51,253 bases of DNA, taken from positions 1 through 51,253 of the forward strand of contig JAFUGY010000122.1 of assembly GCA_017469115.1 (NCBI GenBank), given 5' to 3'. Both the position numbers and the translations under genes were made by a program. Shown in pieces: positions 29,493-43,160 of this stretch (position 1 is its first letter; every line of letters starts with the position of its first letter). Origin of the DNA: Oscillospiraceae bacterium. Its GTDB lineage: Bacteria; Bacillota; Clostridia; Oscillospirales; Oscillospiraceae. Below the pieces are notes generated by a model, which was given only the letters and a program-made list of their open reading frames with translations, made no database searches and was not told the origin of the DNA.

Positions 29493-31220
29493 ATGAAAAA
29501 ATACAGCGGAAAATTTGCGCTAACCCTGGCAGCAAATCTTTGCCTTTGGCTGACCGCGCTCTTTTTCTCCTCTATGGAGATTTATTTCCGTAATCTTCCG
29601 GAATTTAACTTCCCGGTTCAACATGTCTGGTGGATTATGCTCGCCTTTGCTTTTGCTGTTGCGCTTGCTGTTGCCGCAATTGAAGCATTCCTGCCCGGGA
29701 AAGCTGTGCTCTGGATTGCTGCGATTACGGTGCTGGGCGGAATCTGTTTTTATGTGCAGATGCTTTTCCTTGACGGCCAGATGCTGGAGATGATGGGCGA
29801 AAACGTCCCCTTTTCGAAGAAAACAGTTGTCGTGAACCTCGCAATCTGGGCTGCAATCATTATTGGTTTCCTTTTGATTTGCATTCTGCTCCAAAAACAA
29901 GCGGGAGAAAGAAAGCTGAAAGAAGTCCTGATGCTGCTCTCGGGTGCGCTGATCATCATTCAGACGAGCGGGCTTGTTTCAACAAGGATGTCACTCACTG
30001 AGGAAGATCTGAACAAGGATCTCTATCTTTCCACGCAGGGGGAGTTTGAACTCTCTTCAACCTGCAATGTGCTTTATTTTATTCTTGATACCTGCGATCG
30101 CGAATATGTGGAAGCAGCTCTGGAAGCAGACCCTGATCTGTTTGAGGAATATACCGGTTTTACCAATTATCGGAATATGACTTCCAAATACAGCCGTACG
30201 TATCCCTCTCTTCCATTCCTCCTGACAGGGGAGAAGTGCTATTTCGACCTCCCGGATACGGAATATATCCGTCAGGCTTATGAAAACGGCACATTCCTTC
30301 CGGATATGGATGCTTCCGGTGTGGATATTCGGCTCTACACTGCTCTGAGTTATCTGGATAGAAACGCTTATGATATGGTAGATAATATTCTATCCTATCC
30401 GAGCGAGGCTCTCGGCTATCTCTCTGTTTCCAGCCTCATCAAAGCGATGATTCACCTGGGGGGATATCGTGAAATGCCATACCTTTTGAAGCCGTTGTTC
30501 TATTATACGCCGGATCCGATCAACCGCTCGGTCTTGAAAGCCCTTCCGGGCGATTACTTCACAATGACGAATAACAATTTCGAATTTTATGACAGGCTTC
30601 TTCGAGAGCAAGTCACCGTGAAGAGCGATCGCTCCTCCGCTTTTCGCCTTTACCATTTGTTCGGGCCGCATCCCGGCTGTTATATGAATGAAAAGGCACA
30701 GTACGATCCCAATGCCTCCCAGACGGATGCTGCTCGGGGTGATTTCCTGATTCTGGCTGAATATATCCGTTTCCTGAAAGAAAAGGGCATTTACGACAAT
30801 ACAGCCATTCTTGTTACGGCAGACCACGGCAATCAGAATGAAGCGGAAGATTTTGTTCTGCACAGTCCACCCTGCTGTGTAATGCTTTATAAACCGATCG
30901 GCGCAGACAGTTCTGCACCCATGACGGTGTCTGATGCTCCTGTCAGCCATGACGATCTGTTTGCCACTGTCCTGGATCAGCTCGGGATCGATAGCTCCGC
31001 TTATCCGCCTGCCCTTGATTCTCATCACGAAGGGGAAGACCGGGAGCGAATCTATTACTACACCGCACAGCGGTCCTGGGGTGAAGGGGAAGTTGCCCTT
31101 CGGGAGTACAGCATACGTGGGGATGCATCTGACCTTTCCAACTGGACGCTCACCGGCAATGATTGGGATATTCTTTACTCTGCCAATGCTGTTTCGAAAG
31201 AGCGGCTGAACAGAAATTAG
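29493..31220 (+). CDS. LtaS/sulfatase-superfamily membrane enzyme
   Basis: A 575-residue membrane protein with four N-terminal membrane segments (about 8-28, 45-66, 70-92, 108-132) and an external alkaline-phosphatase/sulfatase-fold domain from about 185. Candidate metal and catalytic residues are Asp199 in FILDTCDREY, Thr236 in RTYPSLPFLLTG (the place of the LtaS nucleophile), and Asp444-His445 in TADHGN. The architecture resembles lipoteichoic acid synthase and phosphoethanolamine transferases, though the N-terminal helices and nucleophile context are divergent. Likely role: transfer or hydrolysis of a phosphate-linked group on a cell-surface polymer. It begins 35 bases after polC with AAGGGAGA. 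No promoter or terminator separates them, so read-through from polC is possible. Confidence 0.8.
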   Translation: MKKYSGKFALTLAANLCLWLTALFFSSMEIYFRNLPEFNFPVQHVWWIMLAFAFAVALAVAAIEAFLPGKAVLWIAAITVLGGICFYVQMLFLDGQMLEMMGENVPFSKKTVVVNLAIWAAIIIGFLLICILLQKQAGERKLKEVLMLLSGALIIIQTSGLVSTRMSLTEEDLNKDLYLSTQGEFELSSTCNVLYFILDTCDREYVEAALEADPDLFEEYTGFTNYRNMTSKYSRTYPSLPFLLTGEKCYFDLPDTEYIRQAYENGTFLPDMDASGVDIRLYTALSYLDRNAYDMVDNILSYPSEALGYLSVSSLIKAMIHLGGYREMPYLLKPLFYYTPDPINRSVLKALPGDYFTMTNNNFEFYDRLLREQVTVKSDRSSAFRLYHLFGPHPGCYMNEKAQYDPNASQTDAARGDFLILAEYIRFLKEKGIYDNTAILVTADHGNQNEAEDFVLHSPPCCVMLYKPIGADSSAPMTVSDAPVSHDDLFATVLDQLGIDSSAYPPALDSHHEGEDRERIYYYTAQRSWGEGEVALREYSIRGDASDLSNWTLTGNDWDILYSANAVSKERLNRN

Positions 31221-31258: not shown

Positions 31259-31287
31259 TTGACAGAAGAAATCGCGATGTGTAAAAT
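31259..31287 (+). promoter_or_regulatory. Internal promoter before the small YIDP membrane protein gene
   Basis: TTGACA at 31259-31264, a 17-base spacer, and TAAAAT at 31282-31287. A short GGGCA/TGCCC hairpin lies just upstream (31246-31259). This would give the last three genes of the cluster their own start. Confidence 0.7.
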
Positions 31288-31321
31288 AAACTGTATTTTT
31301 GTGAAAAGTGGGGAAATGAAA

Positions 31322-31576
31322 ATGCTCAGAATGCTTTTCTATTTTGTTTGCTTTGCCGTGATCTGCACAGTCAGCGCGTCTGCGGATTACATTGATCCTT
31401 CTGCTGTTACCTATACAGCTCAGGCAATTGCCGCTGTTGTTGTTGCCATTGGAGCTCTGGCAACGGTTTTCCGTCATAAGATTGTTGCGTTCTTCAAAAA
31501 AGACAAGGGTGAGAGCACCAAGCGTGAAATCCATCTGAAAGATGACGAACAGGATTCTTCTGCGGCTGATAAGTAA
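31322..31576 (+). CDS. Small membrane protein with YIDP motif (84 aa)
   Basis: An 84-residue protein: a cleavable or uncleaved N-terminal hydrophobic segment ending near SASADYIDP, a second hydrophobic helix (about 33-50), a basic patch RHKIVAFFKK, and a charged tail. Short proteins with a signal-like helix followed by YIDP are, from memory, recurrent neighbours of sulfatase-fold or envelope genes, but I know of no proven function. The start at 31322 has GGGGA at a seven-base distance; ATG 31316 is also possible. A longer reading from TTG 31259 is unlikely because that triplet is part of the promoter. Confidence 0.7.
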   Translation: MLRMLFYFVCFAVICTVSASADYIDPSAVTYTAQAIAAVVVAIGALATVFRHKIVAFFKKDKGESTKREIHLKDDEQDSSAADK

Positions 31577-31585
31577 ACTCTTGTG

Positions 31586-32833
31586 ATGAAAAAATCCGGA
31601 AAGCGTGCGCTTTTGATGATTGTACTGCTTCTGGCAATTGTAGTTGTTGCAGGTGCTGCATGGGTTGGCTTGCATCTGATCAGCCATGAGAAGCGGCAGA
31701 ACAGTGACCTGGAAGCTCTTCAGAATCAGGTCGGATCGTTGCTTTCAGACTCGCCTGACAGCAAGCCGGAAATTCTTTCCGCCAGGCAGAGTTTCCTGCG
31801 GGAGATTGACAGCATTTTCGTTTCTGAGGGTGGCTTGAATGCCTATCAGAAGCTTGCCTGCGGGGAAGATATTCGCTTCCTCATTGTTGGCGATTCTATC
31901 GGTGCTCTGGAATGGACGAACGATGTGGCTTCTTGGATACAGGATAACTATCTCGTCCGTTGTGAGATCAAAAACATCTCCCTCGGCAGCAATACCAGCT
32001 ACAGCGGCTATGTCAGCGAAAAGCTTCTGGATGACGGCATTGCGTATGATCTCGTCCTGGTCTGTTACGGACAGAATGATGCACCACTGGGCTTTGCAGC
32101 GGATTACGAGGCTTTGATTCGTGAAGTTCTGACGAAAAACGACATGCCCTGTGTGATCTCCGTTCTGGAGAGTTCTCAGCGCGAATATACCGAAAAGATG
32201 CAGGACATCGGCAAAATAGCGGATTATTATGGCCTGCAAATAGCGGATACCATAGAAGCGTTTGAAAACAGCGGCTATTCTTACGAAGTCCTCTCATCTG
32301 ACGGGGTTCACCCCAACGGAATCGGGCAGAGCATTTATGCCCAAACAGTCAAAGAAGTAATTCGCAATTGTGTCACAGAAGAGTTTGAACGAAAAAGCCG
32401 CCTGATTTCTAAAGCCCTGCAACAAGGCAGCCCATATGCTCCCGAGGATTACTGCGTTTCGCATACGCTGCCCGAACCGATGGATCGGGAGGGAGTAGCT
32501 CCGTTTGAGCACTTTCGTTATGTCCCTTCTGCTGACTTTCAAAGAATCAGCGATACGGAATGGGTCATCCATTTTGATCATCCACAGAACGGCATTCTCG
32601 GTATCAACCGCAGCCGCTGCCCGGGAGAAAACCTCTTTGAAATCTATCGCAACGACGAGCTTTATTATTTCGAAGAAGACTATCTGAGCATCGGTTATTA
32701 CCTGATGAAAATCAGTAAAGTATCGGAAACGGCTGAAACATTCACCGGAGATCTTCGCGTGAAGTTCCTTCAGAAAGATCATGCCGATCACTTTTTCGGC
32801 ATCATATTTACAGACTATGAGGAAGCAGACTGA
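31586..32833 (+). CDS. SGNH/GDSL-type hydrolase, membrane-anchored
   Basis: A 415-residue protein with an N-terminal membrane anchor (about 8-28) and an external SGNH domain. Block I is FLIVGDSIG with Ser104, block III is CYGQND, and block V is SSDGVHPNGIG with Asp239 and His242. A C-terminal beta-rich extension of about 140 residues follows the catalytic domain. Such enzymes add or remove acyl groups on cell-wall or surface glycans. Its place between the LtaS-like enzyme and the YidC-transferase fusion suggests polymer modification (inference). GTG at 31583 is an alternative start; no strong ribosome site is visible for either. Confidence 0.83.
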   Translation: MKKSGKRALLMIVLLLAIVVVAGAAWVGLHLISHEKRQNSDLEALQNQVGSLLSDSPDSKPEILSARQSFLREIDSIFVSEGGLNAYQKLACGEDIRFLIVGDSIGALEWTNDVASWIQDNYLVRCEIKNISLGSNTSYSGYVSEKLLDDGIAYDLVLVCYGQNDAPLGFAADYEALIREVLTKNDMPCVISVLESSQREYTEKMQDIGKIADYYGLQIADTIEAFENSGYSYEVLSSDGVHPNGIGQSIYAQTVKEVIRNCVTEEFERKSRLISKALQQGSPYAPEDYCVSHTLPEPMDREGVAPFEHFRYVPSADFQRISDTEWVIHFDHPQNGILGINRSRCPGENLFEIYRNDELYYFEEDYLSIGYYLMKISKVSETAETFTGDLRVKFLQKDHADHFFGIIFTDYEEAD

Positions 32834-32836
32834 TTT

Positions 32837-34654
32837 ATGGAGTATTTGGGAAGATTTTTCGGCATCCTTTTAAACTGGTGTAATGGCCTTACCGGGAATT
32901 TCTGGTGGGCCATTGTTGCCTTTACTCTGCTTACGAAGATCATTCTCCTGCCGGTCTCCGTCCTGGTGCAGAAAAACTCCATCAAGATGGTAAAAATGTA
33001 CCCGGAGATGAATCGCATTAAGGCGAAGTACTTTGGCAACAAAGACAAGATCTCCGAAGAGCAGTATCAGCTCTACAAACGGGAAAACTATCATCCGATG
33101 CTCGACCTGATTCCGACGATTTTACAGCTCGTGATTCTGATGGGTGTGGTCCGGGCAATCCCCGCCTCGGAAGAGCGTTCTCCCCTTTATATGCCGGTGC
33201 TGGCGGCGCTGTCTGCACTGGTTATGTGTCTTGCACAGAATCGCTCGAATGTGCTGCAGTCAGAGCAGAGCAAAGCCAATCAGTGGGGTACGCTTGCTTT
33301 TTCTGTTGCTCTCTCGCTTTATCTTGGCCTGTTCGTATCCAAGGGTGTGGCTTTCTACTGGATCTGCAGCAATCTGATGGCAACAGCCCAGATGTATTTG
33401 CTCAATGCCTGTATTAATCCCAAAAAATATATCGATTATGAGGCTCTTGCCGATAGCAGGGAAGAGCTTTCCAGAGTAGAAAAATTATCTGCCGTCACGA
33501 AGCATAAGCGTCCGAAAGAGCTCATTCGGCGTGAGAAGGCAGACTATAAACGTTTTTTGTCTTTTGAAAACAAACAGATTGTGTTTTATTCCGAAAAGAA
33601 CGGATTCTATAAGTATTTTCGGGATGTTATTGAAACCATTCAGCGCCGCACTGATATTATCATCCATTACATTTCTTCTGACCCGGAAGATGAAATTTTT
33701 TCTCTGACGAGTGATACCTTTCAAACCTATTATATCGAAGAAAAGCTGATGGTTCTCATGATGCGTATGGATGCAGATATCGTTGTCATGACCACTCCGG
33801 ATTTGCAGAAGTATTACATCAAGCGATCCATGGTGCGGGATGATGTGGAGTATGTCTATATGGATCACGGCATGAACAGCGTCAACCTGATGCTCCGCAA
33901 AGGAGCTCTTGATGCTTTTGATACCGTCTTCTGCTCCAATGAACGCGTCTATGAAGAAATCCGTGCACAGGAAAAATGTTATGGCTTGCCGGAGAAAACG
34001 CTGGTGAAATACGGATATGCAATGATCGACAATATGATTCGATCCTATGCCGAACAGCCTCCTGTTCACAACGATCCGCCTGTGATTCTCATTGCCCCGT
34101 CCTGGCAGGAGGACAACATCATGGACACCTGCATCGAGCCTATTCTGCAAAGCCTTCTCCCGGAAAACTATCAGGTTCTGGTTCGCCCGCATCCGCAATA
34201 TGTCAGGCATAATCCTGAAAAGCTGGAAGCTCTGAAAAATCGCTTCGCGTCCTGGCAGAATTTCTGCCTGCAGACCGACTTTTCATCCAACCAAACCGTT
34301 TTCAATGCCGACATTCTGGTAACCGACTGGTCAGGGATTGCCTATGAGTATTCCTTTACCACGCTCAAGCCCTGCCTGTTCCTGAATACGCCGATGAAAG
34401 TGATGAATCCTGACTACCGGGATATCCCGGTCGAGCCCTTTGACCTCACCATTCGCAATGAAATCGGGATTGCCCTTCAGCCGGAGGAAGCCGGGACAAT
34501 TGCTGCCGCAGCCGACCGTCTCCTCCGTGAACCGGGCTTTTCAAAAGAGAGCATTGCTGCCCTGCGGGAGAAATCCCTTTATCAGATCGGGCATGCAGCT
34601 TCTGTCGGGGCCGATTATCTGATCAAAAGGCTGATCGAACGTTCAAAACAGTAA
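32837..34654 (+). CDS. YidC/Oxa1-like domain fused to CDP-glycerol glycerophosphotransferase-like domain
   Basis: A 605-residue fusion. Residues 1 to about 210 follow the YidC/Oxa1 insertase core: FWWAIVAFTLLTKIILLP, then YPEMNRIKAKYFGNKDKI, an amphipathic loop, HPMLDLIPTILQLVILMG and two more membrane segments. The conserved Arg of the first core helix is Lys34. Residues from about 240 form a GT-B-like domain with features of TagB/TagF enzymes that polymerise glycerol phosphate from CDP-glycerol: the HG pair in VYMDHGMNS, LIAPSWQED, VRPHPQY, and ADILVTDWSGIAYEYSF. No frameshift or internal stop separates the parts, and no ribosome site for a separate second protein is seen. Likely role: membrane-anchored synthesis of a teichoic-acid-like chain. 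It is the last gene of its operon. Confidence 0.87.
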   Translation: MEYLGRFFGILLNWCNGLTGNFWWAIVAFTLLTKIILLPVSVLVQKNSIKMVKMYPEMNRIKAKYFGNKDKISEEQYQLYKRENYHPMLDLIPTILQLVILMGVVRAIPASEERSPLYMPVLAALSALVMCLAQNRSNVLQSEQSKANQWGTLAFSVALSLYLGLFVSKGVAFYWICSNLMATAQMYLLNACINPKKYIDYEALADSREELSRVEKLSAVTKHKRPKELIRREKADYKRFLSFENKQIVFYSEKNGFYKYFRDVIETIQRRTDIIIHYISSDPEDEIFSLTSDTFQTYYIEEKLMVLMMRMDADIVVMTTPDLQKYYIKRSMVRDDVEYVYMDHGMNSVNLMLRKGALDAFDTVFCSNERVYEEIRAQEKCYGLPEKTLVKYGYAMIDNMIRSYAEQPPVHNDPPVILIAPSWQEDNIMDTCIEPILQSLLPENYQVLVRPHPQYVRHNPEKLEALKNRFASWQNFCLQTDFSSNQTVFNADILVTDWSGIAYEYSFTTLKPCLFLNTPMKVMNPDYRDIPVEPFDLTIRNEIGIALQPEEAGTIAAAADRLLREPGFSKESIAALREKSLYQIGHAASVGADYLIKRLIERSKQ

Positions 34655-34723: not shown

Positions 34724-36493
34724 TTACAGGTGGTATTCTTTCATCAGATACCCGGAATACCGTTTTGCCATGACTCTCCAGTTGTAGAGAGATTCTCCCA
34801 TCACCGCTCCGCAGGCTTCCCGATACAAAGCCCAGACATACCAGTAATACGATATAACGGCAGTATAGGCGAGATAATGAAAAATCAGCCTGCTGCTGTT
34901 TTCTTTTCCCAGGTATTCCTGAATAAACGCCTTTGCCTGGTCAATCTCCCACATGGAGTCCATAATATAGGTTCCGATGTCACAACCGGGGTCGGCGTTT
35001 CCGGCATATTCCCAGTCAATCAGAATGGTGTCGCCTTTTTCCGTGAGCATCCAGTTTGGGGCGTATGTGTCACAGTGGCAAAACCGTTCCCGTACGCCGT
35101 CACCGTCACAGGCGGCAAGGCACTTCCCGACGTGTTCTTTGAGTGTGTCAAATTCACGGTCGACGATCCCGTCTTTTCCGGTTCGAAGCAGAGCCTCAAT
35201 TTTTGCAGCTTCCTCCCAGGGATGAAACGCCCAGTCCACGCTGAGCTCCTTTTTATGCAGTTTTTTGAGCACAGCCAGAATTCGTTTGGAATCTTCAAAA
35301 CTGTTGTAATCAGGTGTTCGGATTCCCTCTACGAAAGTGGAAATTTTCCACCCTTCCCGATCATCCATCGTCAGGTAAGTGGGGTCAACGCCGGTCGCGC
35401 GGGCAATCTCCAATGCCTTTTTTTCATGGCTGCGGGAGATAATCATTTCGGTTCCTTCTCCCGGATGCCGGTAGACGTATTTCTTTCCCCGCACTTCAAA
35501 AACAAAGGAAGTATTGGTCAACCCTTCCTTGATTGCCTGAAAATGCAGAATTTCGTTTTCTCCGCATTGCAGCACGGTGGCGATGTTTCGCATGATTTTG
35601 CTGTGCGTGTGATGAATATAATATTCGTCAAAGGTGCGCAGTTCATCCAGCGAATCGAACTCAAAAATGCTGCCGGCAGGATATTCCTTGATTTCCATGG
35701 GCGGCAGATCTTTCACATGCTCTGCCAGCACCTGCTCCCACAACACCTGGGCATAGTTCCCGACGCTCTGATCCTTTTCCAGCAATTCCAGCATCCCGCG
35801 GCTGAAAGCTTCATCCCAGTAGACGTGCCCGAGCATAATGCTGCCCTCGTCTCCGGCCTTTTTTACTTTTGCAATATTCCCTTTGGAATCGGGAATCATA
35901 TACCATTCATTGGTTTTCTTAAAAACATGAACGGCTGAATAATAAGCCTGATAGACGTATGCATCAAACGGGTTTTCTTCAAAATAATCATCCGAAGAGC
36001 AGATATAGCTGTTTCTGATGCAGTCTCTGGCGAGAAAGAGCGTATAGGTGTTATTTTTTGTGTTGTATTCCGGGTTGATGATGATTTTCAGCCCGTCGTA
36101 TTTGCTTTCCAGATAGAAAAATGCTTCTTTTTTATAGCCGAGCACCAGAATAATCTCCTGAATGCCCGCTTCACGGAGCTGTTCAATCTGCCGTTCAATC
36201 AACACCTCGTTTTTTACGGTAAGAAGCCCTTTCGGTTTTTCAAGCGAGAGCGGTACAAATCGGGAGGAAAGCCCTGCAGCCATAATAACGGCATTGTCAA
36301 CTTTGTAAGGTGCCAGGGCTTCCAGCCCTTTTTCCGTGATTCCCTCCGCATTGAGATACCCGTTTTCCTGGAATTCTTTTACCGCCCGGGAAATAAACCC
36401 GGTAGACACACCCGCATGCTCCTTCAATTTCCGATAACTCTGCATGCCGTGTTTCTGAATGGCATATAATAAATTAAACTCGTTTCGGGTCAT
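34724..36493 (-). CDS. HTH - LicC-like cytidylyltransferase - LicA-like choline kinase fusion
   Basis: A 589-residue three-domain protein. Residues 1-70 are a MarR-like winged helix (SYRKLKEHAGVSTGFISRAV, then ITEKGLEAL). About 70-280 is a nucleotidyltransferase with VIMAAGLSSRF, EKPKG and NPEYNTKNNTYTLF, closely recalling pneumococcal LicC, which makes CDP-choline. About 300-589 is a choline/ethanolamine-kinase-type phosphotransferase with GLTNTSF, HCDTYAPNW (His473, Asp475) and ILIDWEYAG. One polypeptide could thus phosphorylate choline, activate it to CDP-choline and bind DNA. The start is the second ATG (36493): the GGAGG at 36501-36505 is seven bases from it but only one base from the first ATG. 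It lies 21 bases after the transporter gene. Confidence 0.88.
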   Translation of the reverse strand: MTRNEFNLLYAIQKHGMQSYRKLKEHAGVSTGFISRAVKEFQENGYLNAEGITEKGLEALAPYKVDNAVIMAAGLSSRFVPLSLEKPKGLLTVKNEVLIERQIEQLREAGIQEIILVLGYKKEAFFYLESKYDGLKIIINPEYNTKNNTYTLFLARDCIRNSYICSSDDYFEENPFDAYVYQAYYSAVHVFKKTNEWYMIPDSKGNIAKVKKAGDEGSIMLGHVYWDEAFSRGMLELLEKDQSVGNYAQVLWEQVLAEHVKDLPPMEIKEYPAGSIFEFDSLDELRTFDEYYIHHTHSKIMRNIATVLQCGENEILHFQAIKEGLTNTSFVFEVRGKKYVYRHPGEGTEMIISRSHEKKALEIARATGVDPTYLTMDDREGWKISTFVEGIRTPDYNSFEDSKRILAVLKKLHKKELSVDWAFHPWEEAAKIEALLRTGKDGIVDREFDTLKEHVGKCLAACDGDGVRERFCHCDTYAPNWMLTEKGDTILIDWEYAGNADPGCDIGTYIMDSMWEIDQAKAFIQEYLGKENSSRLIFHYLAYTAVISYYWYVWALYREACGAVMGESLYNWRVMAKRYSGYLMKEYHL

Positions 36494-36514
36494 TCGCATT
36501 CCTCCGGGAGATAT

Positions 36515-37951
36515 TCATACAATGTCAAGTTCATTCCTGTCCCTCAGCATATACGATCTCAGGGGGGTCAGGCTTGCAAGCCAATAGAGCAGCCCGCCGC
36601 AAATTGCCGTATAGCCGCTACCTGTCACGGCGAGGAAAATCGGGCTCTTGATTTCTGCCGTGAGAGGATTATAGATAAACACCACACAAGTGACAAAAGA
36701 AATCAGAATGCATCCGAGGCCGACGAGATTGAATCCGTTGGTGAAAGCATAGGCATTTTTCCCGTCAATCTGATAAAGCGATTTCAGAGAAATCTTGCGC
36801 TTTTTCACAATCAGGTAATCGACAACCGTCATCCCGATAATGGGACCTTGAATATAGGCAGCACACGAAATGAAGCTTCCGAAGTGATCCATCACCCATC
36901 CCCAGATCGTCAGTGCGCTGACGTAAATCATCGCCAGAAATACCAACAGCTTATAACTGACGTTGGGGAGACCGCTTTTTACGATCATGCAGTTAACATA
37001 AGACCCTGTCCCCTGCGTTCCGATGTTGGCAAAGGCAACCATCAGCAGGCTGAGCAGAGAAAAGCCGGGGCCGGCGAGCGTGGCGAGCATAACGGTGGGG
37101 TCACTCTCGTAGTAGCCTGCCTTTACAAACATGGCAATTGCCATAACGCCTCCTGCTGCAACGAAAAACGGAGCTACAACGCCGTAGGCGAGAGAGGTTG
37201 CCCAATATCCCGATTTCTCACTGCGTGCAAGCCGCGGCAGAACGAGAGCCTGTGTCGACCAGGAGAAGGCAAAAGCCACATTCCCTTCCGCCGAAAGCAT
37301 AAAAGCGCCGAGCCTTGTGCTGTAAAGGCTGGTGTCCGGCTGCACGGCGAGCATCTCTTTGATCGGCACTGCCGTAAAACAGATCGCCACAACAATTGCA
37401 CCGACGATCAGCAGCGCCGTAACCAGAAATCGGTTCGTCCATTTGATCACTTCCGGGCCGCCCAAGGCAATCAGGGTTCCCAAAACCACACATAGGACTC
37501 CCAGAACGGGCTTCCAGAATGCTGCATTCATCGTGATGCCGAAAGCACCGAACAAATTGATCATCGAAGAGGCAAACAGCTGCGAGTCCACTGCGTACCA
37601 ACCGAAGTTTGCCATGCTGATCACCGTTGCCAGAATGGCAACGCCCTTTCTGCCGAGAACCGACCGGAGCCAGATCCACAAATCAATTCCGTAGCGAACA
37701 CTGAAAAAAACCGGGATGCATTCTATCATCACCCAGATGATGTTGAAGCAGAAGATGTTGATCAGCATCTGCCGGAAGGAGAGATATTGTGCAACATAAG
37801 CGCCCTGCGTGTAACACCATGTTGCAATCGAAAACCCGCTTGTCGTAAGAAAGAGATCCCAAAAACTGTATTGCCGGTCTTTTGCCACCATCGGCACGGT
37901 TCCGGTAATGGTTTCCTGGCGGATATATTCATTATAGCCTGTTTTAGCCAT
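36515..37951 (-). CDS. NCS1-family transporter (candidate choline or amine importer)
   Basis: A 478-residue membrane protein with about twelve helices and the NCS1 (cytosine/purine permease) pattern: an N-terminal RQYSFWDLF segment, GNVAFAFSWSTQALVLPRLA in the middle, and SYVNCMIVKSGLP. Characterised members import cytosine, purines, hydantoins or thiamine-related compounds. Here the gene sits directly before the HTH-LicC-LicA fusion, where lic operons carry the choline permease LicB. I therefore suspect an amino-alcohol or amine substrate. That is inference from context. The start at 37951 follows GGGGGT; its ATG overlaps the stop of the preceding small gene (TAATG). Confidence 0.87.
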   Translation of the reverse strand: MAKTGYNEYIRQETITGTVPMVAKDRQYSFWDLFLTTSGFSIATWCYTQGAYVAQYLSFRQMLINIFCFNIIWVMIECIPVFFSVRYGIDLWIWLRSVLGRKGVAILATVISMANFGWYAVDSQLFASSMINLFGAFGITMNAAFWKPVLGVLCVVLGTLIALGGPEVIKWTNRFLVTALLIVGAIVVAICFTAVPIKEMLAVQPDTSLYSTRLGAFMLSAEGNVAFAFSWSTQALVLPRLARSEKSGYWATSLAYGVVAPFFVAAGGVMAIAMFVKAGYYESDPTVMLATLAGPGFSLLSLLMVAFANIGTQGTGSYVNCMIVKSGLPNVSYKLLVFLAMIYVSALTIWGWVMDHFGSFISCAAYIQGPIIGMTVVDYLIVKKRKISLKSLYQIDGKNAYAFTNGFNLVGLGCILISFVTCVVFIYNPLTAEIKSPIFLAVTGSGYTAICGGLLYWLASLTPLRSYMLRDRNELDIV

Positions 37952-38130
37952 TATACAATTACCCCCGTCATGCAAAGCAGAATCAGCACGGCACAGCCTG
38001 CAACCAACAGAAGAATAGCTGCGGCGTCTTTTTTGTCGGCTTTTTCCGGAAAGGGATAATCCTTTACGCTCATTTCCTGCAGCCGGAGGGAGGTTTCTTC
38101 TGTGATTACTTCTTCAATTGACTTTTCCAT
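37951..38130 (-). CDS. Single-pass small membrane protein (59 aa)
   Basis: A 59-residue protein starting MEKSIEEVITEETS. It has a charged N-terminal half and one C-terminal membrane helix (about 41-58, AAILLLVAGCAVLILLC). GGAGG lies nine bases upstream of ATG 38130. Its stop overlaps the start of the NCS1 transporter by one base, so the two are coupled. It could be an accessory subunit or regulator of the transporter. I recognise no named family. It is the first gene of the three-gene lic-like operon, just downstream of the operator at 38151-38191. Confidence 0.78.
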   Translation of the reverse strand: MEKSIEEVITEETSLRLQEMSVKDYPFPEKADKKDAAAILLLVAGCAVLILLCMTGVIV

Positions 38131-38238: not shown

Positions 38239-39702
38239 CTATTCTTTTACCACAATCGAGGCTTTTCCGTAAAAGGTAGCAGTATCCTCATTTTCGTAAG
38301 AAGTCGGATCGGCCGTCATGTCGGTAAAGAAGAGGATATACGGTTTCGTATCAAAAGGCGTGAATTCACACGCTGAAATGCCTGGGTCTTCCAGAACTTT
38401 TTGTCGTTCGGTTGCCTGTATATAATAGTGTTGTGCTTCACCGCTTCGCAGTTCACTGAGCGCCGCGACGGAAGTGATTGTACCATGGAACAATAATACG
38501 GAACCGGCAAGGCATAGGACAGCCGGAGCGGAAAAACCACAAAAACTCTTCCATGAAATTCCGTTTTCTTTCTCCCTGGTTTCTGCTCTTTTTCTGCTGA
38601 TCCAGCCCAGCCACCAGAACAGATTCAAAACGCTGAAAATCAGAAAAGCAAAATAGAGGATGTTTTTTAATCTCTCCGGCCCATCGCTGCCCAGCGCGTA
38701 CAGGTGAGGGGTGAAGAGCGATGCAAACAGGCAGAAGCTGAATGCACTTACCGCTCCGGGGAGAATAAACGAAAAGCTGCTCTGCTTAGCCCCATTCCAA
38801 AGAAACGGCAACAGGAAAAACACACATGCAGCAAAGCGAAGATCCATCCAGTGCAGCGCATTTTGCCCTGCAGCGAGAAACGATTGTAAAATCGCCTTTA
38901 CGGCGTCGGGGTGTGTTTCGGATAGCCCCTGTCTCACGGCATTGCCCGGTGCCCGTATGCTCACCACAAAAGCGATGAACAGCAGAGCAGTCGGGAGCAG
39001 AAGCACACTCCATCGTCTGTCTTTTTTCCAAATCAATCCGGTAAGAAGCAACACTTCACAGATGCAGGCGAACAGAGCTGTAATATAATTGCTTCCTCCG
39101 ATCACGATGCTCAAAACAGCAGCAATGCCGATTCTCCACCATTTTCCGTAAAGCAGATATCCGATCATCACGGAAAACAGTACAAGCAGCACGGCAAACG
39201 TAAAGGTGTAGTAGACGGCTCCGTTATACCAGTAAAAGCTCTGATTCGGAGAGGGGAGGAACTGTGTGCACGCTATGGAAACAACTGTTGCCATGATTGC
39301 TGCCAACGTCTTTGAAACACCGAAAACCCCATGCATCAGCCGGTGAAAGAAAAAGAAGATCCCACCGATCAGCGAAAACACCATCAGCCACGTCGTCAAG
39401 CCGTAACGGCTCAGCCCCCAGATAGCCGGCTGGAACGCCATGAGAAATACGGCCGCAAATGACCCCTGCCACGTGTCATAAACCATACGGGTTTTCTCTG
39501 CGGCACCGGCAAGAAGGTTCAGAAGAGAGCCTCCGTCACGAACAGAGGCATGAGTTTCACAGCTGAAGCTGAAGTCGTCCGCTGCCGGCACGTCATACCG
39601 TGCAATCACAAGCATCGGGATCAGTAGAATCACCAACGCAGCCAGAAGGAGAATCAAGATACAGCGATAGGAGATAAAATGCCTTTCATTCTTCGTTTTC
39701 AT
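38239..39702 (-). CDS. Multi-pass membrane protein, DUF6056-like (possible glycosyltransferase)
   Basis: A 487-residue membrane protein with about ten to eleven helices. A first external loop carries YDVPAADDFSFSC, and a later FYWYNGAVYYTFTF segment recalls DUF6056 proteins. An acidic pair in the first loop is also typical of GT-C glycosyltransferases that use lipid-linked sugars, so that role is possible but not shown. The C-terminal 80 residues form an external domain. ATG 39702 has AAAGG eight bases upstream; earlier in-frame Met codons overlap or precede this site. The start overlaps the end of the O-antigen-ligase-like gene by 17 bases. No terminator separates its stop from the lic-like promoter. 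Confidence 0.78.
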   Translation of the reverse strand: MKTKNERHFISYRCILILLLAALVILLIPMLVIARYDVPAADDFSFSCETHASVRDGGSLLNLLAGAAEKTRMVYDTWQGSFAAVFLMAFQPAIWGLSRYGLTTWLMVFSLIGGIFFFFHRLMHGVFGVSKTLAAIMATVVSIACTQFLPSPNQSFYWYNGAVYYTFTFAVLLVLFSVMIGYLLYGKWWRIGIAAVLSIVIGGSNYITALFACICEVLLLTGLIWKKDRRWSVLLLPTALLFIAFVVSIRAPGNAVRQGLSETHPDAVKAILQSFLAAGQNALHWMDLRFAACVFFLLPFLWNGAKQSSFSFILPGAVSAFSFCLFASLFTPHLYALGSDGPERLKNILYFAFLIFSVLNLFWWLGWISRKRAETREKENGISWKSFCGFSAPAVLCLAGSVLLFHGTITSVAALSELRSGEAQHYYIQATERQKVLEDPGISACEFTPFDTKPYILFFTDMTADPTSYENEDTATFYGKASIVVKE

Positions 39703-40966
39703 GAACATCACCTTTGGAAGGAAGCGTACAAACCATGGCAGCAATCTGCGCAATCAGAAATACGGGATACCAGGTAAACCAACTTGTGATGGATGACTGC
39801 ATCATGATCAGCTCTGCAAAAATCACTGTAGTGAAAAAGCCGGCCAGCTTTCTGTCAGGGCTTTTTTTCAAGATTCCCGATGTGAAAACCAGAACCGCAA
39901 CCGCACCGCAGGTGGTTACGAACCCACCTTCATAAAGCGTCTGAAGATAGGCGTTGTGGGCATTGTAGCTGAGGCTGGTGTTCGGGCGCTGGAAAAATTC
40001 CGCCTGTTCTCCCAGCCCGTATCCGAGGATAGGCTTCTTTACTATGAGTGCCAATACGCCGTTCCAGATAATAAAACGGATATAAAGCGATTTCAGCAAA
40101 TCGAGCAGATGGTCCATCAGCCGAAAACCGAGCTCGGTGTGGAAGTAGAACCACGAACAAAAGCATAAAAGCGCACAGAGCAGAATAGAAAGCAGCACAA
40201 ACAACGTCAGCGATTTTCTCTCCATCAGTTTGCGGATACGGGGGAAAAACAGAGAGATGCCCAGAATTGCTCCGGCAATCATCGCACTGGCGCAATGAAT
40301 CAGAATCTGATTGGCAAAAAAGAGAATAAAATACAGAATACAACGAAATTCATTTCGGTTATACTTCAGATCCAGCAGTGCAAGCACAGCGCCAAACAGA
40401 AGCGGAAAGCCGGTCAGGTTATCAGCCGAGAGCAGAAAATCCGGTTCCCAGTCGGTAAAAAAGTGGTAGAGCTGCGGGTGAACCGTAAAAGCGATGTTCA
40501 ACAGTGCCAGCAGTATATAAACGTCACTCCCGACGCGGCAAAACCGCCTGATTCCCCTTTCCGTGCTGCACATCATCGTGACAAACAGAAGCATCACCAT
40601 GGGGTACAGAGTGGTGTTCCCCCACCGGGCAGGAAATTCCCCGTTGCTCTTGAGCAGCGAAGTGAGCAGATACAGAAGATAAGCGCCGCAGATGGGGAGC
40701 AGTGCTCCAAAACGGAGAGAAGTCCGCTTCACCCACAGCCAGACAAGAAACCCGGCCGGAATGAGAACCGTGAAACAACGGTGGGCATGGAGATAAAGTG
40801 CCATAAAAACATCCAGTGCTCTCTTTCCTGTGTCATACAGGAAAAAGAAATACAGGTTTTCCAGGCATCTGTCCATCGTCAGGAGAACAGCAATGATCAA
40901 AAGGCAGAGCCCCGCCTCTTTCAGAATTTCCCAAACCGATTTATGTTTTGCCAAAAAACCTGTCAT
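39686..40966 (-). CDS. O-antigen ligase/Wzy-like membrane protein
   Basis: A 426-residue protein with about eleven to twelve membrane helices. The large loop near the C-terminus contains the Wzy_C signature: a GYGLGEQAEFF segment then YNAHNAYLQTLYEGGF. Family members join or polymerise glycan chains on a lipid carrier outside the membrane. In Gram-positive bacteria related proteins act in capsule or wall-polysaccharide assembly. GGGGG at about 40975-40979 lies eight bases before ATG 40966, which is preferred to an upstream Met at 40987. It is the first gene of a two-gene unit with the DUF6056-like protein. Confidence 0.85.
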   Translation of the reverse strand: MTGFLAKHKSVWEILKEAGLCLLIIAVLLTMDRCLENLYFFFLYDTGKRALDVFMALYLHAHRCFTVLIPAGFLVWLWVKRTSLRFGALLPICGAYLLYLLTSLLKSNGEFPARWGNTTLYPMVMLLFVTMMCSTERGIRRFCRVGSDVYILLALLNIAFTVHPQLYHFFTDWEPDFLLSADNLTGFPLLFGAVLALLDLKYNRNEFRCILYFILFFANQILIHCASAMIAGAILGISLFFPRIRKLMERKSLTLFVLLSILLCALLCFCSWFYFHTELGFRLMDHLLDLLKSLYIRFIIWNGVLALIVKKPILGYGLGEQAEFFQRPNTSLSYNAHNAYLQTLYEGGFVTTCGAVAVLVFTSGILKKSPDRKLAGFFTTVIFAELIMMQSSITSWFTWYPVFLIAQIAAMVCTLPSKGDVHENEE

Positions 40967-41012
40967 CAAGCTGCCCCCGCGTTTCATCCCAAACCGATTT
41001 TCAGTCCTTTAT

Positions 41013-41041
41013 AATATATCATATTTCACTTTGCTTGCCAA
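41013..41041 (-). promoter_or_regulatory. Promoter of the O-antigen-ligase-like gene
   Basis: Minus strand: TTGGCA at 41036-41041, a 17-base spacer, and TATATT at 41013-41018. Confidence 0.7.
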
Positions 41042-41076
41042 TCATCAAATTATTTTGCTTCCTTTCAACTTCCCTG

Positions 41077-41105
41077 TTGAAATCCAACGAAAAAAGTGTT
41101 ATTAT
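41077..41105 (+). promoter_or_regulatory. Promoter of the zinc-ribbon/TPR-like gene
   Basis: TTGAAA at 41077-41082, a 17-base spacer, and TATTAT at 41100-41105. It is divergent from the promoter at 41013-41041. Confidence 0.7.
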
Positions 41106-41153
41106 GTCAACTCAGAAAGCTGTCACAAGCGAATTCTTGTAGGGGGCGGTTTT

Positions 41154-43160
41154 ATGGCGGAAAAGAATAACAAAAAAATAGACTTGTATACTTTACCAAC
41201 GGCACTTTATACCAAAGATTCTCCTGTGTTAATCTACAGTGGGGTTCTCGTGATGGACAGATTCTCAGAGAAAGTATCCGTGAATCTTCATCTGCGGAAT
41301 ATCGATGAAAGAGAAGTCATAGCAGCCACGGTTTATATCCAGCCCTACAGCCCATGGGGTGATCCGTATCCTCAGGAGGTTATCTATCGTTATAATTCTC
41401 TGAAAGTGTTGCATGATCAGGAATTCGGCAGCAGAAAGCTGATTCCCATGCCGGATAACAACGTCCGTTCCTTTATGGTGTTCGTCTCCGAGGTAACCTT
41501 CGGCGATTACAGCACCTGGAAAAACGAAAAGGGGTTTGAACCGGTCGGCCGGGCAAAACCGTTGGAAGAAGCGCTCGGCAGCGAAGAAGCCGCGCGGATG
41601 TTCACCGCCCGATATGGGCGTGACGGCGCGTATATGCCTCTGCTTGAAAAAGACATCTGGTATTGTACCTGCGGAGCCATCAACCGTGCAGACAAAGAAA
41701 AATGTTATAACTGTCGCCGCAATAAAGATGCTTTTCAGACGGTGAATTATGAAACACTGAAATCGGATGCCAAAAAGCGTGCCGATGCTGAAAAGAAGGA
41801 AGACGAGCAGATTCATAAGGAAAAGAAAGAGAAAGGCCGGGTCTTCCTGAAGGTTGCCATGATTGTCTTGCCGCTTCTTCTCGCGGCTGCGCTGATCTTT
41901 TCCACGGTTCCTCCTTTCCTTGCCCGCCGAGAAGCCTATGCCAACGCCCAAACAGCATTGGAAGAAGGCAAGTACGACGAAGCCCGGCAGCTCTTTGAAG
42001 ATCTCGGTGATTATCTCGATTCCCGGAACTACGCGGAAAATGAAATCCTCTATCGGAAAGCTATGGCTGTTTATAAAGGGGCACAGAAGAGTGATGCTTC
42101 CGTGTTGCCGCTTGCCGGCCTTTCCAGAAGTGACATTTCTGATTCCGATGATCTCGGAATGGTGCTTTACGGCAAAGCAAAGGAACTCCTGGAGCCTCTG
42201 GGCGACTACCGGGATGCGAAAGAAACCATCCGCAGCATCGATGCAGCCTTTCAGGCTTTTGAGGATCAGAAAATTCTGGATCGTTATCATGCTGCCGTCA
42301 AACTGCTTGAAGATGGGGAATACCTCGGCGCGAGAGACGCCTTCCTGGCCCTCGGCGATTACCGCGATTCTGCCGACATGGCAACGGAAGCTCTTTACCG
42401 GCGTGCCTCCGCGGCTCTCGCTTTTGTGGAGAGCAACAAAACGCGCGGTATCTATCTGCTCCCCAGCAGCGATAAAGAGGTAAAATCAATTGTTTCGATG
42501 CCGGGTTCTGTCCTCACTGCCCTCGGCAGCGATCATGTTTATCAGCTCAAGCAGTGTTTTACCAAAGACGGTGTTGAATTTATCTATGAAGAAGCTCCTT
42601 CTCAGCAAGGCATTCTCCCCGTGTGCGAAGCGGTAGCGGCAGAATTCGAGGCGCTGGGCGATTATAAAGACAGCAAAGATCTCGCTCTCCGCGCCCGCGA
42701 AGCCGGGAACTACACCGCGGAATTTTACGATCTCCTTGCTGCCGGCGAGCTGGAAAAGGCTCATCAGTGGCTGCAGGACTATGACGATGACTTTCCTGAT
42801 CGTGAATCTTACGATGAATGGCTCTTTACCTATTACGCGTATTGCGGCAATTGGAAGTTCCTCGGCGGCGATATTGCCCTGATTCCGTATTCAGCCGGAG
42901 AGGGTTCGGAAGAGCCTCTGTTGAATTTGACGACGCGCGTAACGATATCCGACAATGAGGTGACGCTGCATCTTCTGGATGCTGACGGTTCGAATCATGT
43001 TGAGATGAAAGCAGAATTCGGGAGCACCGATTTTGTTTACCATGCGGATGACGGCACCTATTACAAAATCTATATTAGCTATGTCAATCACCTGGTTTAC
43101 AGCCGCCACTATGATACCGATGGGACGGAACTTACAAATTGTGAATATGAACCGGCATAA
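41154..43160 (+). CDS. Membrane protein with zinc ribbon and TPR-like LGDYxDS repeats
   Basis: A 668-residue protein. Residues 1-165 form a beta-rich domain of unknown type. Four cysteines follow in a C-x-C ... C-x2-C arrangement (171, 173, 184, 187; YCTCGAIN and CYNCRR), a small zinc ribbon. Next are a charged linker, one membrane helix (about 228-252) and an external region with at least four helical repeats built on LGDYxDS: FEDLGDYLDSRNY, LEPLGDYRDAKET, FLALGDYRDSADM and FEALGDYKDSKDL. The last about 120 residues are beta-rich. The architecture suggests a scaffold or sensor spanning the membrane. AGGGGGCGG precedes ATG 41154; the frame continues upstream through the divergent promoter region, so earlier starts are rejected. 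Confidence 0.82.
   Translation: MAEKNNKKIDLYTLPTALYTKDSPVLIYSGVLVMDRFSEKVSVNLHLRNIDEREVIAATVYIQPYSPWGDPYPQEVIYRYNSLKVLHDQEFGSRKLIPMPDNNVRSFMVFVSEVTFGDYSTWKNEKGFEPVGRAKPLEEALGSEEAARMFTARYGRDGAYMPLLEKDIWYCTCGAINRADKEKCYNCRRNKDAFQTVNYETLKSDAKKRADAEKKEDEQIHKEKKEKGRVFLKVAMIVLPLLLAAALIFSTVPPFLARREAYANAQTALEEGKYDEARQLFEDLGDYLDSRNYAENEILYRKAMAVYKGAQKSDASVLPLAGLSRSDISDSDDLGMVLYGKAKELLEPLGDYRDAKETIRSIDAAFQAFEDQKILDRYHAAVKLLEDGEYLGARDAFLALGDYRDSADMATEALYRRASAALAFVESNKTRGIYLLPSSDKEVKSIVSMPGSVLTALGSDHVYQLKQCFTKDGVEFIYEEAPSQQGILPVCEAVAAEFEALGDYKDSKDLALRAREAGNYTAEFYDLLAAGELEKAHQWLQDYDDDFPDRESYDEWLFTYYAYCGNWKFLGGDIALIPYSAGEGSEEPLLNLTTRVTISDNEVTLHLLDADGSNHVEMKAEFGSTDFVYHADDGTYYKIYISYVNHLVYSRHYDTDGTELTNCEYEPA

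Follow-up and report, generated by a model that had tools for sequence, protein, structure and literature searches.

A YidC-fold domain fused to a GT-B transferase in gut Clostridia: a candidate membrane-bound transferase for cell-surface decoration

A protein of 605 amino acids, in which a YidC/Oxa1-type insertase fold is joined to a PF04464/TagF-type GT-B transferase, is encoded at positions 32837..34654 (+ strand) of the window, by which is meant the whole stretch of DNA analysed, that is, positions 1 to 51,253 on the forward strand of contig JAFUGY010000122.1 from Oscillospiraceae bacterium GCA_017469115.1. Relatives of this YidC-transferase fusion are numerous in gut Clostridia. To judge from the genes beside it, its task appears to be the loading of phosphonate or phosphocholine-like groups with which the cell surface is decorated, and not the insertion of proteins. 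In the best explanation of the whole, to which an even chance is given here, the fusion would act as the membrane-bound transferase of a machine that decorates the cell surface.

The two domains lie in one uninterrupted frame, as an earlier note on this DNA had claimed. The assignment of this open reading frame (ORF) is based on Pfam and on its relatives. In the window protein PF02096 was matched over residues 22-190 (E 1.7e-29; 103.3 bits, cut-off 35) and PF04464 over residues 240-515 (E 6.1e-14; 52.2 bits, cut-off 22.1). The YidC/Oxa1-type domain occupies residues ~1-200 (32837..33436, + strand), and its helix pattern in the AlphaFold2 model is compatible with the known core, the fold-search rows covering mainly residues 244-604. 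We take its anatomy to be an amphipathic helix (residues 2-19), the first transmembrane helix (TM1) carrying Lys34, the C1 hairpin, TM2, TM3, the C2 loop (138-146), TM4 and TM5. The YidC-domain model TIGR03592 of NCBIfam fell narrowly short, with 82.9 bits where 84.3 are required, and of the NCBIfam models listed for YidC equivalogs none reached its cut-off for the window fusion. The transferase domain, residues 244-605 (33566..34651, + strand), is recognised by Pfam, alignment and fold search, with TagF and TarL among its best structural matches. The top Foldseek rows (SPY and UDP-GlcNAc 2-epimerases) were rejected as functional relatives, being neighbours in the GT-B fold. In alignment A3, which holds 67 of 86 fusion ORFs after duplicates, near-identical, open-ended, sulfatase-fused and frameshifted sequences were excluded, the putative active-site residues His344, R450-P-H452-P, T496-D-W-S499 and E504 are retained in 67/67. 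His452 aligns with a His of TarL, and His344 was assigned by motif only. The catalytic histidines of TagF are given as H444 and H584 in passages of PMC5974469 and PMC11666461, and the retention of His344 and His452 would agree with such a catalytic pair in TagF-like enzymes.

A scan in which each of 84,980 species was represented by one genome gave 497 encoding stretches. The best 80, mostly from Lachnospiraceae, were kept. According to our own hidden Markov models (HMMs), 78 of these 80 loci have the PF02096- and PF04464-type parts in a single ORF. Counted among them are L120, whose YidC part is broken into two frames, as well as L093 and L100, which run off the contig end; the two misses are L115, truncated at its 5' side by the contig boundary, and L085, for which the caller picked an antisense ORF. 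An assembly artefact or a chance fusion was therefore rejected. In a draw of 398 genomes from the phylum, six including that of the window had a match at E <= 1e-30, not all of them fusions. A phage or plasmid origin was rejected. None of the plasmid records reaches a coverage of 80% of the query, and the transferase part has relatives at 47-50% identity in three 'Bacteriophage sp.' records (MT836947, MT838376 and MT836777), which carry no annotation, come from human faeces and are possibly mislabelled bacterial contigs. Gene neighbourhoods were tabulated with our own HMMs for 84 fusion loci, up to 10 kb on each side, some ends being contig ends. Two rows, L044 (on the contig of L035) and L122 (the window itself), were dropped from this table as duplicates, and L085 and L115 are absent, having no callable fusion. 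Gene positions were taken from a simple longest-ORF caller, by which spurious ORFs may be counted.

The fusion is an extra YidC paralogue, since a canonical yidC linked to rnpA, a gene whose presence the earlier note had also considered, sits on another contig of the same genome, where the order reads rpmH-rnpA-yidD-yidC-jag (genes named from their sequences). Replacement of the canonical YidC by the fusion was rejected on the same ground. In a quick tree, 32 of the 67 fusion YidC domains were split by one branch, with an approximate likelihood ratio support (SH-aLRT) of 100, from 25 canonical YidCs; a second tree contained 20 fusions. Lys34, at the groove position, had been read as compatible with a changed role. 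The residue itself is real, with K in 64 and R in 3 of the 67 fusions, but it is no sign of such a change and was rejected as its mark, because 25 canonical YidCs, taken from the window's genome, from the genus to which it belongs and from further families of the order, vary at the same position (K 12, N 11, R 2). The canonical YidC of the window's genome (L001:1298-2617) is itself among those with Asn where Arg is usual. The C2 loop is more conserved in the fusions (0.84) than in canonical YidCs (0.40), and conservation of TM2 is about equal (0.67 and 0.69). Invariant polar residues are kept by the fusions in TM1, TM3, C2 and TM5; Tyr174 and Trp175 are invariant in canonical YidCs as well as in fusions.

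The genes around the fusion point to its donor. Phosphoenolpyruvate (PEP) mutase is present in 41 of the 84 loci and lies no more than five genes away in 40. It is accompanied by PhnW in 39 and by Ppd without PhnW in 2, and PhnW alone (3/84) or Ppd alone (2/84) was found elsewhere. A long nucleotidyltransferase occurs in 9 loci, LicC-LicA in 2 and a nucleotidyltransferase alone in 7. Representatives of PEP mutase, phosphonopyruvate decarboxylase and 2-aminoethylphosphonate (2-AEP) aminotransferase passed the NCBIfam cut-offs, as did genes of L142, L129 and L139. At L036 an Fe-alcohol dehydrogenase takes the place of PhnW, which suggests hydroxyethylphosphonate (HEP). The long nucleotidyltransferases carry an aminotransferase class I/II pyridoxal phosphate (PLP) domain, PF00155, in three of the four tested by Pfam; in that of L119, PF00155 is below threshold and the CobD model scores weakly. 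The PLP domain is nearest to threonine-phosphate decarboxylase, under the cut-off of that model, and phosphoethanolamine or aminopropanol phosphate may be guessed as substrates. A nucleotidyltransferase fused to a CobD-like PLP domain was observed at L046, L088 and L101, and these fusions perhaps make CDP-ethanolamine or CDP-aminopropanol from an amino-acid phosphate. The transferase probably uses a donor of this general kind, an amino-alcohol phosphate or phosphonate activated with CMP or CDP.

In the window itself, the donor gene is a fusion of a winged helix-turn-helix domain, a LicC-like nucleotidyltransferase and a LicA-like choline kinase (34724..36499, - strand; PF01047, PF00483/PF12804, PF01633), the last two parts being recognised at Pfam level only. 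It is partnered by an NCS1-type permease (36515..37975, - strand; PF02133), which has an 846-bit match in L169. In the window's genome, which is 89% complete, profiles gave 0 matches to LicD (PF04991), to PEP mutase and to glycerol-3-phosphate cytidylyltransferase (TIGR01518). From the presence of the former genes and the absence of the latter by profile, we infer that the window most likely uses CDP-choline, or a CDP-amino alcohol like it, as donor. Glycerol phosphate, the substrate proposed in the earlier note, is not supported and probably wrong, given the missing cytidylyltransferase match and the fact that the relatives of the fusion lie near AEP/CMP-AEP or LicC/LicA-type genes; the other part of that proposal, that the insertase fold was recruited as a membrane or lipid module for envelope polymer synthesis, is retained as a lead. 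At L043, whose fusion is 84% identical to that of the window, a nucleotidyltransferase stands beside an importer nearest to 2-AEP transporters, with all scores under cut-off. A winged-helix (MarR/HTH) segment N-terminal to the LicC-like nucleotidyltransferase was observed at 34724-36499 of the window and at L043, L116, L118 and L131.

A recurring partner of the fusion is an LtaS-like membrane transferase, encoded in the window at 29493..31220 (+ strand), in which helices (residues 2-166) are followed by an alkaline phosphatase (AlkP)-fold domain matched by PF00884. LtaS is its best solved relative by sequence (E 6.9e-10). The model (pLDDT 88.9) shows transmembrane helices and then the AlkP fold; identification as LtaS from structure alone was rejected, LtaS not being singled out among AlkP-fold enzymes, and the likeness is drawn from sequence and layout. 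Asp199, Thr236, Asp444 and His445 are invariant in the 35 LtaS-like sequences of alignment A4 (taken from 53 listed sulfatase-like sequences), and we take them to be the Thr nucleophile and metal ligands, as in LtaS/EptA chemistry. An LtaS-like gene is found in 53 of the 84 loci, within three genes of the fusion in 38 and within five in 49. In six other loci the LtaS-like part is fused to the protein, C-terminally in five and N-terminally in one (L084), and Pfam supported a sulfatase-type domain in three of the four fused proteins submitted. The second recurring partner is a small membrane protein, termed YIDP here (31259..31576, + strand), with a signal-peptide-like N-terminus, the motif YIDPSAVTY, one transmembrane helix and a basic tail; its translation probably begins at an internal ATG of this ORF. 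The YIDP family occurs in 54/84 loci and directly adjoins the fusion in 51. At L130 a single protein contains both the YIDP segment and the LtaS-like part.

The same parts are also found in a second layout (genomes G305, G511, G591 and others), in which the YidC domain is carried by the LtaS-like protein and the transferase is separate and nearby. PF02096 was matched by 15/15 of the YidC-LtaS-like proteins examined and PF00884 by 13/15 (E <= 0.001); alignment A5 holds 15 of 16 such sequences, and in the YidC tree their YidC parts have a branch length of 4.84, too long for placement. The transferase of this layout starts with YIDPGTGSM or a near variant, followed by a transmembrane helix, and the one compared is homologous to that of the window (hhalign 99.9%). 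A YidC or YIDP segment lies within 1.5 kb in 0/30 ordinary PF04464 control loci, obtained from 52 genomes with PF04464 matches, as against YidC in 8/14 and YIDP in 14/14 second-layout loci at the same width. Two second-layout systems are held by G305, one (L142) in a full AEP operon and the other (L131) near BCCT, MttB and LicC-LicA genes, neighbours that suggest a link to choline or betaine; at L131:9370-16784 a BCCT transporter, an MttB-type methyltransferase and LicC-LicA were observed beside the YidC-LtaS-like/transferase pair. The second layout at L169 has as neighbours a LicC-LicA gene and a permease closely related to the NCS1 permease of the window.

In a less biased sample, consisting of 250 genomes from one family, the transferase was found in 20 genomes as 23 genes, where two fragments in G942 were taken as one gene, as were two segments in G789, without being joined. 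Nine of these genes encode YidC fusions, and of the remaining 14, 12 stand beside a YidC-LtaS-like gene, so that YidC is fused or adjacent for 21 of the 23. PEP mutase was found in 23 of the 250 genomes, eight of which also have the transferase (Fisher p 9e-5, uncorrected for kinship, both counts being assumed to cover the same 250 genomes). The donor genes of the sample are mixed, namely AEP/HEP, LicC/LicA, long nucleotidyltransferase, or none seen. At L129:3694-12724 an AEP operon was observed with a fusion of PEP mutase and nucleotidyltransferase and a stand-alone transferase, followed by an AlkP-type gene and a look-alike.

A mechanism can be proposed from this linkage of genes and domains. 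The C-terminus of YidC is cytosolic, which places the transferase with the nucleotide donors, and LtaS-type catalytic domains lie outside; the YidC domain thus sits between both steps. The cytosolic GT-B domain would draw on a donor activated with CMP or CDP, probably a CDP-choline-like compound from the LicC-LicA gene in the window and CMP-aminoethylphosphonate in about half of the relatives examined, and would transfer the phosphonate or phospho-amino-alcohol group of this donor to an acceptor bound to the membrane. Between this step and the extracellular LtaS-like transferase, the recurring membrane module would be the YidC-fold domain; most likely the lipid-linked product would lie in its groove, through which the head group could pass over the bilayer, to be moved to a surface polymer by the LtaS-like enzyme. 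The acceptor, the lipid intermediate and the translocation in this scheme are what we infer. That the YidC domain moves or handles a lipid-linked head group, and is not a mere anchor, is held as a serious possibility, a little short of even. Passages of the preprint PMC10491306 report that E. coli YidC, Oxa1 and Get1 scramble lipids in vitro and that all Oxa1-family members simulated do so in silico, and this work is cited in a part of the review PMC7618853. This scrambling and the greater conservation of the C2 loop are the reasons why such a role is favoured over a plain anchor.

It is less likely, in our judgement, that the YidC domain serves only as a membrane anchor or scaffold beside the LtaS-like partner while another protein moves the lipids. 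Such a function would agree with the simple YIDP-transmembrane anchor of transferases without a fused YidC, and with L129 and both loci of G747, where the transferase has no YidC in the surrounding DNA examined; yet a single transmembrane helix would be enough for anchoring, and the whole polar-groove fold with its invariant polar residues is kept. Moreover, where the transferase has its own transmembrane anchor, YidC persists on the LtaS-like partner in the 12 family-sample genes mentioned above. Small single-span proteins are typical clients of YidC, and the frequent YIDP gene beside the fusion is of this kind, as would be expected if the YidC domain were a dedicated insertase or chaperone for the YIDP or LtaS-like membrane parts of the system. 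This function is considered improbable: the genome of the window has its canonical YidC, and the YIDP segment belongs to the transferase itself in the second layout. In addition, the C-terminal tail, which binds ribosomes in many canonical YidCs, is replaced by the transferase in the fusion. Least probable is the first reading of the gene, a TagF-type glycerol-phosphate (teichoic acid) polymerase with an added membrane domain. The PF04464 match and the structural proximity of TagF and TarL speak for it, but glycerol-3-phosphate cytidylyltransferase has no match in the 89%-complete genome, the neighbouring genes make other CMP/CDP donors, and the TagF-type His-Gly pair reads HG in only 25 of the 67 fusions.

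Several results weigh against the surface-decoration machine with a lipid-handling YidC domain. The transferases of L129, which lies in an AEP operon, and of G747 have already been mentioned. Only 8 of the 20 transferase genomes of the family sample have PEP mutase, close by in just five, and 15 of its 23 PEP-mutase genomes are without this transferase. No donor gene was found by our own HMMs in 20/84 fusion loci, some of which are cut by contig ends, and LtaS-like genes directly adjoin the fusion in only 13/84. The kinase of the window also scores with thiamine-kinase and GntI models, all under cut-off. As for the structural evidence, the AlphaFold2 model of the fusion (pTM 0.64) does not fix the domain arrangement, the fold search barely probed the YidC half, its rows mainly covering residues 244-604, and UDP-GlcNAc 2-epimerases equal TagF in fold score. 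Furthermore, the set of the best 80 loci is biased toward the window's kind, and a second PF04464 protein (L003) is present in the window's genome. In the DNA surrounding L003, as around the distant stand-alone relatives L040 and L041 (G004, G021), no YidC was detected by our own HMM; at L040 the transferase itself was missed by the gene caller.

Other genes of the window complete the neighbourhood. An SGNH/GDSL-type protein (31583..32833, + strand; PF13472) lies directly upstream of the fusion and was found in three loci, namely the window, L042 and L043. By neighbour comparison, a DUF6056 protein (38239-39753, - strand) and an O-antigen-ligase-type Wzy_C protein (39686-40987, - strand) form a pair that, besides the window, occurs together only in the close relatives L042 and L043. 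An ORF of 776 amino acids at 40830-43160 has no Pfam match; a relative of it adjoins the fusion in L035, similar-looking ORFs lie near the fusion in L042 and L043, and it could be a further part of this surface system.

In comparison with known systems, TagF/TarL differ from the fusion, which has an N-terminal YidC domain, other donor genes and 16-18% identity in structural alignments. The Lic phosphocholine pathway shares the LicA-like kinase and LicC-like nucleotidyltransferase, fused and adjoining the window gene, whereas the window's genome has no LicD match and offers an NCS1-type permease and a PF04464-type transferase with a YidC domain. LtaS and the AlkP-superfamily transferases resemble the partner of the fusion, which differs in being fused to YidC or to the YidC-transferase in some genomes. 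In three-component glycosylation of the CsbB-GtcA-YfhO type, lipid loading in the cytosol is followed by flipping and extracellular transfer; on this comparison the proposed logic would be the same, with CMP/CDP phospho-groups in place of sugars and the YidC fold in place of GtcA. We know of no natural system that exploits lipid scrambling by YidC-type proteins. The Oxa1-family scramblases, as described in portions of PMC10491306, belong to the same superfamily and are ordinary insertases, not enzyme fusions. With the Pnt pathway, as outlined in parts of Rice et al. 2019 (PMC6697681), many relatives share PEP mutase, Ppd, AEP transaminase and a LicC-like nucleotidyltransferase near the gene, whereas the window itself is without PEP mutase by profile. 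The same source mentions LicD-like phosphotransferases and glycosyltransferases, describes the steps to surface phosphonate modifications as unknown and leaves open the transfer after CMP-AEP; its main text makes no mention of insertase, Oxa1, PF02096 or PF04464. Among the literature matches listed, which comprise titles and the beginnings of abstracts with most subscription journals outside the scope, no description of a YidC-transferase fusion was found.

The family is a strong candidate for the transfer step after CMP-AEP in part of the Lachnospiraceae and their relatives, which include many gut commensals, and some of its members are in culture, such as Roseburia inulinivorans DSM 16841 (L099). 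More tentatively, the YidC fold could be a dedicated translocator of lipid-linked head groups, placed on either of the two neighbouring proteins, in a general surface-decoration machine of gut Clostridia that would supply the missing transfer route for many phosphonate operons. If this is true, the insertase fold gains a job other than with proteins, and if translocation is shown, the YidC fold would have a use that is categorically new, within Lic/Pnt-like tailoring.
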